Source: an uncultured Clostridia bacterium (GTDB taxonomy: Bacteria > Bacillota > Clostridia > Peptostreptococcales > Anaerovoracaceae). From it: 64,000 bases of DNA. Location of the stretch: contig CANEEC010000001.1 of NCBI GenBank assembly GCA_947426455.1, forward strand, positions 1 to 64,000, given 5' to 3'. The notes beneath the pieces are model-generated. The model made no database searches, was not told where the DNA came from, and saw only the letters and a program-made list of their open reading frames with translations. Each line of letters opens with the position of its first letter. Positions within the stretch are counted from its first letter, which is position 1. The position numbers and the translations under genes were made by a program. Below are positions 11,372-13,177 of this stretch, one piece after another.

Positions 11372-11401
11372 AGAAAAAGCAGATGAATTTCATCTGCTTT
11401 T
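11372..11401 (-). terminator. terminator after the creatininase-family gene
   Basis: AAAGCAGATG / CATCTGCTTT hairpin, on the minus strand followed by TTTC. It lies 15 bases past the stop codon. Confidence 0.65.
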
Positions 11402-11415
11402 CCATTCGTTCTTTT

Positions 11416-12210
11416 TTATTCTTTCCAATCCCTGATTTCCAATAGACCCTGAACTAAAATTCGAGCGCTGGTTTCCAGAATGATACGTCCCTTTTCCGCC
11501 GTAGCGCCGGAAGGATCGCCGCCAATACCAATAGGCTTTCCTTCTTTTGTTTTCCAGTCCTCCGACATCCATCCAATCGATGTGGTTCCATATGGCAAAA
11601 GTGCTTTATTTTGAACAAAGGAAGCAGGAATTCCAGCTTCTGCGGTATCTAATTTCACCAAACTTTCATCCACGGCCATAACCATGGAAGTTTCCATTTC
11701 ACCGCCATGAAAATCCCAAATGTTTCCTTCCGAGACGGTAGCCTTTACATCAGGATGGGAAAAGGCGCCAGAGGAAAGAAAAAAGGGGTAAATTCCCAAT
11801 TCACTCCGTAATTCTCTGCTGAGCACCTGAACGATAGGCGTATTTCCACCATGGCAAATCAGAAATGCTATCTTTTGAAAGCCGTGATGAGCCAAGCTGC
11901 TGCAAATGTCATAAAGCAAATGATAATATGTATCAGGACGAAAAGTGATGGAACCGCAGAAATTTTTATGTTCTGTGCTGAGTCCCACGGGAATCAGGGG
12001 AAAAACCAGCATGGGAAAATTTTCTTCCCCCGCTTGTTCCAACGCTTTTCCGATCTGTTCCACCATAGCTTCGGCAATGATATCATCCGTTCCTAAAGGC
12101 GCTTGATTTCCGTGTTGTTCCAAAGATCCCAGGGGAATGAGAACGATGGTGTTTTTCTTATCCAGCCGTTCCATTTCCAAACGGGTAAAATCCCTGTAAT
12201 TCTTAAGCAT
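11416..12210 (-). CDS. creatininase-family amidohydrolase, FMN-riboswitch operon
   Basis: Metal-dependent amidohydrolase of the creatininase family (creatinine amidohydrolases, archaeal FAPy-nucleotide deformylase ArfB, MftE). Putative metal ligands are all present: LGSLEQHG, GTDD, ICHGGN and DFHGGEMETS. Length is 264 aa from the ATG at 12210, which overlaps the end of the upstream transporter gene by 8 bases and so implies translational coupling; GGGAGG lies 11 bases upstream. A TTG three codons earlier sits too close to that site. Because the promoter upstream of the pair carries an FMN riboswitch, a role in flavin or flavin-precursor metabolism is a reasonable inference. Creatinine as substrate is unlikely, but the true substrate is not shown by sequence. 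Confidence 0.85.
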   Translation of the reverse strand: MLKNYRDFTRLEMERLDKKNTIVLIPLGSLEQHGNQAPLGTDDIIAEAMVEQIGKALEQAGEENFPMLVFPLIPVGLSTEHKNFCGSITFRPDTYYHLLYDICSSLAHHGFQKIAFLICHGGNTPIVQVLSRELRSELGIYPFFLSSGAFSHPDVKATVSEGNIWDFHGGEMETSMVMAVDESLVKLDTAEAGIPASFVQNKALLPYGTTSIGWMSEDWKTKEGKPIGIGGDPSGATAEKGRIILETSARILVQGLLEIRDWKE

Positions 12211-12820
12211 AATCCGCAATTCCTCCCGTAAAATTGGTCGCTTTTAAACGCTCAAATAACCAATAGCCGGCAACATAATTCAGCGAAATTTTTATCAAAT
12301 TAAAGGGAACCGTAGCCAACGCAAGGAATGTTGGCAAATCCTGAATCAAGGGATTGACGGAAGCTACGATGGCCACCACTTCATTCAAAGGCATTCCCAT
12401 GGCCTTTGCATAGAGCGGCAGCGTAATGCACGCGTTTATAAAGCAGGAAAACGTAATGCGAATGGGAATGCTTGCCATCAAAGCGATAAACGCCGCCCTC
12501 TTCGTTTTTCCTAACTTATGATAAATCAAATAAACCGGTAAAATGAACAGCACAATTCCCAATAAATTAGCGAATTCTCCCACATACATGCTATTCGTTC
12601 CCACAGTAAACAGCTTAATCAGAATTTTAATGACTTCAACGCAGGCAGCAGAACCGGGACCTGCAGCAAACAAAGCAATAATCGTGGGGATATCGCTGAA
12701 GTCGACCTTGTAAAAGGGAGGCATCATCGGCAAGGAAAATTCCAAAGACATCAATACCCCCGCTACCGCAGATAACATAGCTGTAAGAACTAACTTTTTA
12801 GTAGACCATTTGTTTTTCAT
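12203..12820 (-). CDS. ribU: ECF transporter S component, RibU-like riboflavin uptake
   Basis: Substrate-binding membrane subunit of an energy-coupling-factor importer; the shared EcfAA'T module is not in this window. About six hydrophobic segments fill the 205 aa. Family features are KLVLTAMLSAVAGVLM near the start and DFSDIPTIIALFAAGPGSAACVEVIK in the middle. The ATG at 12820 follows AAAGGAG with 8 bases spacing. The upstream FMN riboswitch with its terminator strongly supports riboflavin (or roseoflavin-like) uptake. The gene is followed, with overlap, by a creatininase-family enzyme. Confidence 0.92.
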   Translation of the reverse strand: MKNKWSTKKLVLTAMLSAVAGVLMSLEFSLPMMPPFYKVDFSDIPTIIALFAAGPGSAACVEVIKILIKLFTVGTNSMYVGEFANLLGIVLFILPVYLIYHKLGKTKRAAFIALMASIPIRITFSCFINACITLPLYAKAMGMPLNEVVAIVASVNPLIQDLPTFLALATVPFNLIKISLNYVAGYWLFERLKATNFTGGIADYA

Positions 12821-12884
12821 ACATTTTTCTCCTTTCAATGAATGAATTTTACTAAATAAATTCCTCGGAAAGGTAGAACTGTAT

Positions 12885-12916
12885 AAAAAAAATCGACGCA
12901 AAAAAGGGGCATCGAT
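12885..12916 (-). terminator. expression-platform terminator of the FMN riboswitch
   Basis: Minus strand AATCGATGC / GCGTCGATT stem with a T-rich loop, followed by eight Ts. It lies between the aptamer and the ribU start, as expected for FMN-induced termination. Confidence 0.88.
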
Positions 12917-12936
12917 TACATACATAAAACTTTCTT

Positions 12937-13050
12937 TTCTTCTCTCATCCAGACTGTAACTGTCGGTTTTGGAATTTCACCAAATCAGCCGCCGAAACGG
13001 GTCGCGGACTATCACCGCCGGTAGGGAATTTCGCCCTGCCCCGAAGAACT
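12937..13050 (-). ncRNA. FMN riboswitch (RFN element)
   Basis: The minus strand shows the conserved RFN blocks in order: TTCTTCGGGGCAGGG, GAAATTCCC, ACCGGCGGT, AGTCCGCGA, GATTTGGTGAAATTCC, AACCGACAGT and AGTCTGGATGAGAGAAG. These are the invariant strands of the six-helix FMN aptamer. FMN binding is expected to favour the downstream terminator and switch off ribU and the creatininase-family gene. Confidence 0.97.
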
Positions 13051-13068
13051 TATTCTTTTTACCCTTTC

Positions 13069-13097
13069 ACTATACAGCGCATATTATTTTCTGTCAA
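13069..13097 (-). promoter_or_regulatory. sigma-A promoter of the FMN-riboswitch operon
   Basis: TTGACA (complement of 13092-13097), a 17-base spacer and TATAGT (complement of 13069-13074), about 19 bases ahead of the aptamer. Confidence 0.85.
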
Positions 13098-13135: not shown

Positions 13136-13177
13136 TAAAAAAGAGATGAACTCGCTTGAAATTCATCTCTTTTTTTA
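13136..13177 (-). terminator. terminator of the rpmH-to-jag operon
   Basis: AAAGAGATGAA / TTCATCTCTTT stem with a long A/T flank on both sides, directly after the jag stop. Confidence 0.85.

Follow-up and report, generated by a model that had tools for sequence, protein, structure and literature searches.

The question raised by this locus is why a creatininase-family hydrolase should be encoded together with a riboflavin importer behind an FMN riboswitch, and on what compound such an enzyme might act. The cassette lies within a 64,000-nucleotide stretch of DNA (the window) from a 1.89 Mb draft genome that is 96% complete, where it occupies positions 13097-11374 of the minus strand, wedged between jag and mnmE. 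All of its elements are read from that strand. It begins with a promoter-like TTGACA-17-TATAGT sequence (13069..13097) located 17 nt 5' of the aptamer; this site is a consensus match only (11 of 12 positions), as promoter-like sites were found in the region at a rate not above that in shuffles. The FMN aptamer (RF00050, 12933..13052) scored 114.4 bits against a gathering score of 66.2, and its sequence is canonical by alignment to the Rfam consensus, with which alone the pocket nucleotides were compared. It is followed by an intrinsic terminator (12884..12917; z = -4.7) whose hairpin (12917-12891) has a 9-bp stem, AATCGATGC/GCGTCGATT, a 9-nt loop and a U tract.

The ribU-like gene (12203..12820; 205 aa) encodes a putative S component of a riboflavin ECF transporter, and its start is probably at position 12820 rather than at an upstream ATG situated in the leader. 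The creatininase-family gene (11416..12210; 264 aa) has an open frame that extends to a TTG at 12219, the start listed first. This TTG is probably unused, given that the family begins at the ATG at 12210 (invariant M4), which is preceded by GGGAGGAA and makes the gene overlap the ribU stop by 8 nt (ATGCTTAA). A terminator 3' of the hydrolase gene (11374..11402; z = -7.9) and the terminator of the upstream gene jag (13137..13175) form the borders of the cassette. The two border terminators have in common a 19-nt, 89% complementary inverted core (GATGAAATTC-like; 11374-11392 and 13157-13175), which might have played a role in cassette insertion or might be due to chance. All of the parts that an earlier note on this DNA had joined into one unit, namely promoter, FMN aptamer, terminator, RibU-like gene and overlapping creatininase-family gene, were present.

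To describe the distribution of this unit, relatives were gathered by scanning a single genome from each species. They were 58-87% identical and nearly all came from Lachnospiraceae, with a few labeled as Erysipelotrichaceae, Oscillospiraceae or Christensenellaceae; the carriers include cultured Clostridium symbiosum, C. fessum, Drancourtella massiliensis and Oribacterium. A ribU homolog was found immediately upstream of the hydrolase gene in 80/80 related loci, and an FMN aptamer lay upstream in 40 of the 41 loci scanned (16/16, 15/15 and 9/10), the sole exception (L079) being truncated by a contig end. An intrinsic terminator was located between aptamer and ribU in 29 of 31 homologous leaders, which is the predicted layout of an off-switch. 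Neither a third conserved gene nor an efflux or other detoxification gene accompanied the pair in the related loci, whose neighborhoods vary, so the ribU-hydrolase linkage is not due to general synteny. Thus the gene pair is not unique to one strain, whereas uniqueness was what the earlier note would have taken as refutation, and the note's proposal of FMN control with coupling to riboflavin import is borne out, at the level of sequence, by the aptamers and ribU homologs upstream of the related hydrolase genes.

A sample not chosen by similarity, consisting of 299 genomes drawn evenly from one family, contained the hydrolase in 13 genomes, all with scores of at least 460 bits, and no other match at E <= 1e-60. 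The unit is patchy and hence dispensable. Five of these carriers were new, and four of them showed the riboswitch-ribU-hydrolase arrangement. In the fifth (G744), which has no ribU at the locus, the aptamer and terminator are placed directly 5' of the hydrolase gene and a dxs-like gene lies farther 5'; the only RibU homolog of this genome sits elsewhere behind its own FMN switch. This arrangement implies that the hydrolase can be under FMN control by itself, and not only through its neighbor. A second FMN-switched RibU without hydrolase is common in carriers (G063, G067, G070, G073, G074, G075, G546 and G000; loci L201, L203, L112, L121, L116, L127, L202, L227 and L003), and these second RibUs belong either to the long-loop type, like the paired ones, or to a short-loop type.

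The hydrolase matched PF02633 over residues 11-257 (E 3e-62; 210 bits against a cut-off of 31.3). In a Foldseek search with its AF2 model (pLDDT 93), all 26 matches at E <= 0.001 were creatininase-family chains (TM 0.67-0.77), pointing to a creatininase-like predicted fold. Residues E34, H36, D45, H123, H171 and E176, which correspond to the metal and catalytic residues of creatininase (1j2t), are conserved in 40/40 clade members, and the predicted active site is intact. By contrast, the position of creatininase Glu122, a second metal ligand, is occupied by Gly125, with glycine in 40/40 clade members. The enzyme fell below the cut-off of every named NCBIfam equivalog, the best-scoring model being MftE (TIGR03964; 104 bits vs 172), with creatininase (TIGR04448; 73.5 vs 235), IolN (46 vs 245) and ArfB (NF033501; 18.2 vs 180) lower. 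The protein shares with creatininase CrnA and MftE the fold and the metal-site motif ExH...D...H...HGGxxET, but differs from both in its equivalog scores and from creatininase in the Glu122 replacement; no mycofactocin cluster was seen adjoining the hydrolase gene. In a tree of ribU-linked members and 40 other PF02633 proteins, the ribU-linked hydrolases grouped together in a single clade (support 100/100), which is set apart by some 35 specific positions, including Q39, E83, C122, F153, N166, D169, F170 and a PIGIGG stretch. The invariant catalytic positions, the Glu122 to Gly change and these clade-specific positions speak for one conserved specificity, probably distinct from those of the named members. 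The location of the enzyme looks cytosolic.

With respect to its partner, the RibU-like product matched PF12822 (E 2e-22), and its best solved relative is RibU of Staphylococcus aureus (3p5n; E 6.5e-18). The positions aligned with N131 and K167 of the latter, presumably functional residues, hold N in 81 and K in 80 of 82 rows. In nine carriers devoid of RibH and GTP cyclohydrolase II, the paired RibU is the only RibU homolog, and in all but a few of these carriers no FMN switch exists besides the one that precedes it. On this comparison among RibU homologs, the paired RibU presumably carries riboflavin. A longer TM5-TM6 gate loop was rejected as a hallmark of the paired RibU, as it is present in unpaired RibUs too. 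We do not claim independent recruitment of two RibU lineages as partners, as a single clade was not rejected (AU p 0.25).

A role for the hydrolase in de novo riboflavin synthesis has a direct precedent. BrbF of Sinorhizobium and Brucella, a creatininase-family protein like the cassette hydrolase, is an AFRPP (FAPy nucleotide) formamidase of bacterial riboflavin biosynthesis, and its Clostridium homologs form a separate, uncharacterized clade III (PMC9478397). BrbF, absent from the earlier note, gives a creatininase-family role in flavin metabolism a better footing than the archaeal AFRPP deformylase ArfB alone, which shares the family fold and the FMN/F420 pathway theme. FMN control would also be compatible with an enzyme of this kind. 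However, 16 of 28 carrier genomes encode neither GTP cyclohydrolase II nor RibH (lumazine synthase), and 11 encode both. The pathway-less genomes include those of the isolates Drancourtella massiliensis An770, Oribacterium NK2B42 and Enterocloster hominis BX10, so that draft incompleteness is no explanation. The remaining carrier (G085) has a lone GTP cyclohydrolase II domain of ~180 aa (L207; G085:C106:8625-9065) without lumazine synthase.

The window genome does encode both RibH and GTP cyclohydrolase II. It has two FMN riboswitches besides that of the cassette, one preceding ribD and ribE (L001) and the other preceding a second, distant RibU (L003), and its sole PF02633 protein is the cassette hydrolase, which stands outside the rib operon with its separate switch. 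Carriage showed no association with riboflavin auxotrophy (RibH in 4 of 13 carriers vs 116 of 299 genomes overall), and is, as judged from gene content, independent of the de novo pathway. FAPy nucleotides, put forward as a substrate in the earlier note, do not hold up, as most carriers possess neither the enzyme that would make AFRPP nor the one that would use its product, and the score with the ArfB model is a tenth of its cut-off. A biosynthetic role like that of ArfB is impossible in the auxotrophic carriers. BrbF differs further in adjoining MarR and CobW genes and in serving de novo synthesis, whereas the cassette hydrolase pairs with RibU under an FMN riboswitch and is present in riboflavin auxotrophs. 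We consider it very improbable that this hydrolase is a bacterial AFRPP formamidase of the BrbF/ArfB kind.

MnmG sequences of congeners were 88-89% identical to that of the window, those of family members 71-77% and those of Lachnospiraceae 58-62%. The hydrolase was 53% identical in a family member (G022) vs 84-87% in records labeled as Lachnospiraceae or Oscillospiraceae. In three genomes (G062, G006 and G008) jag directly adjoins mnmE without any insert, and one of these (G062) has the cassette on a different contig. The simplest reading of these comparisons is that the cassette moved horizontally as one unit. Plasmid relatives of the hydrolase were all distant, the best-ranked 30 rows being 30-33% identical. 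In a congener (G002) a NUDIX-like gene on the opposite strand lies upstream of mnmE (L229, 3945-4457), indicating that the jag-mnmE junction was rearranged in this genus too.

The cassette resembles the FMN riboswitch-ribU (ypaA) transport unit of Firmicutes (PMC4418817, PMC3766115) in its riboswitch, terminator and RibU-type ECF S component, and differs from it in that a hydrolase is added and coupled to it. The terms creatininase, hydrolase and amidohydrolase were not found when the text of the transporter survey (PMC4418817) was searched, and in the searched text of the RNA-regulon survey (PMC3766115) FMN-regulon genes are assigned to no class other than riboflavin biosynthesis or transport. 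The fin neighborhood of Clostridium scindens, involved in anaerobic riboflavin breakdown, likewise belongs to flavin metabolism of gut Lachnospiraceae, about half of which are predicted riboflavin auxotrophs, and involves FMN-switched ribU genes (PMC12934955). High riboflavin induces the fin genes, which lack a creatininase, and a text search of that preprint did not find the word; the cassette, by contrast, has an off-switch and its expression would be expected at low FMN. In the main texts of the papers searched, no link between a creatininase-family gene and an FMN riboswitch was found, and among papers naming creatininase together with riboflavin only that on BrbF was relevant. The parts are known; their combination and the hydrolase clade appear to be new.

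We propose, with a probability of roughly one half, that the cassette is a self-contained mobile flavin-acquisition unit whose hydrolase recovers usable flavin from an imported or damaged derivative. Low cytosolic FMN would allow transcription to proceed through the riboswitch terminator, so that RibU and the coupled, putatively cytosolic metal hydrolase would be produced together. RibU would work with the shared ECF energizing module and import riboflavin and, by extension, related flavins. The hydrolase would cleave one amide-type bond of a flavin derivative that had been taken up or had arisen through damage inside the cell, and its product would enter the normal riboflavin kinase/FAD synthetase route; we infer all three of flavin substrate, usable-flavin product and bond. 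As the pair has no companion gene and the enzyme looks cytosolic, one hydrolysis should suffice to yield a substrate for flavin kinase/FAD synthetase, which favors salvage or repair of a flavin derivative. A flavin salvage role of the hydrolase is plausible and the one that we favor. Against it we count that, to our knowledge, no common natural flavin has a simple hydrolysable amide, that carriage is patchy within the sampled family and does not track the loss of riboflavin synthesis, and that genes may be clustered and co-regulated without sharing a pathway.

The same co-production with an importer at low FMN would also suit a protective enzyme, which would remove or neutralize a flavin analog or damaged flavin mis-imported by RibU instead of salvaging it. 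RibU-type transporters accept more than one flavin, which also speaks for it. The lack of an efflux or other detoxification gene beside the pair argues against it, and we can name no toxic flavin with an amide beyond the ring imide, which riboflavin itself has. Gut Lachnospiraceae do form riboflavin breakdown products (PMC12934955), a point in its favor, and on balance we regard protection as unlikely.

Creatinine or an unrelated amide as substrate, with the shared transcript being incidental, would agree with the family annotation, and transcript sharing can be accidental. It is harder to reconcile with the maintenance of the pair in every related locus despite varied surroundings, with the FMN switch that G744 retains on the hydrolase without ribU, and with the low creatininase equivalog score and missing Glu122 ligand, and we hold it to be distinctly improbable.

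RibU and hydrolase could alternatively handle another RibU-compatible compound under FMN control, for example a pyrimidine, pteridine or lumazine. The second FMN-switched RibU in the window genome and in several carriers would leave the paired one free to be specialized, and distant relatives of the hydrolase adjoin ECF or NMT1-type importers and other amidohydrolases. This reading conflicts with the nine auxotrophs in which the paired RibU, as the only homolog, should carry riboflavin, and it seems to us rather unlikely. The neighbors of distant creatininases (8-oxoguanine-deaminase-like amidohydrolases, isochorismatase, UbiD and NMT1/ECF importers) gave no firm substrate hint, and an FMN switch was found in 0/8 of their regions scanned. 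One distant relative lies inside an ECF transporter cluster without FMN switch (L192, 3671-9521; G298:C1:582670-588520), formed by a small Pfam-less protein, a double ABC ATPase, a T-like component, the creatininase, an isochorismatase-family hydrolase (best model, biuret amidohydrolase) and a UbiD decarboxylase. The small protein is possibly an S component, and the cluster possibly another ECF-creatininase pathway of uptake and hydrolysis. In three other regions (L193, 4436-11107; L166; L167) creatininase relatives adjoin an atrazine/8-oxoguanine-deaminase-like amidohydrolase, in the first together with an NMT1/THI5-type importer and an FAD-linked oxidase, and these relatives are likely to serve heterocycle catabolism.

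Returning to flavin salvage or repair, a more specific version, which we hold tentatively and with some doubt, is that the hydrolase is the first enzyme dedicated to the salvage or repair of vitamin B2, one that regenerates usable flavin from modified, ring-opened or N-acylated forms and travels among gut bacteria with its FMN-switched cassette. If so, it would be the B2 counterpart of the amidohydrolase step of thiamin salvage. For the gut Clostridia, membership in this family alone is no ground for calling their "creatininase" genes creatinine degraders. To the question of how gut anaerobes obtain, reuse and degrade flavins, the cassette brings a specific, conserved and testable enzyme, and an FMN switch placed over a vitamin B2 importer and an uncharacterized metal hydrolase points to an undescribed enzyme step in the acquisition or repair of this vitamin.
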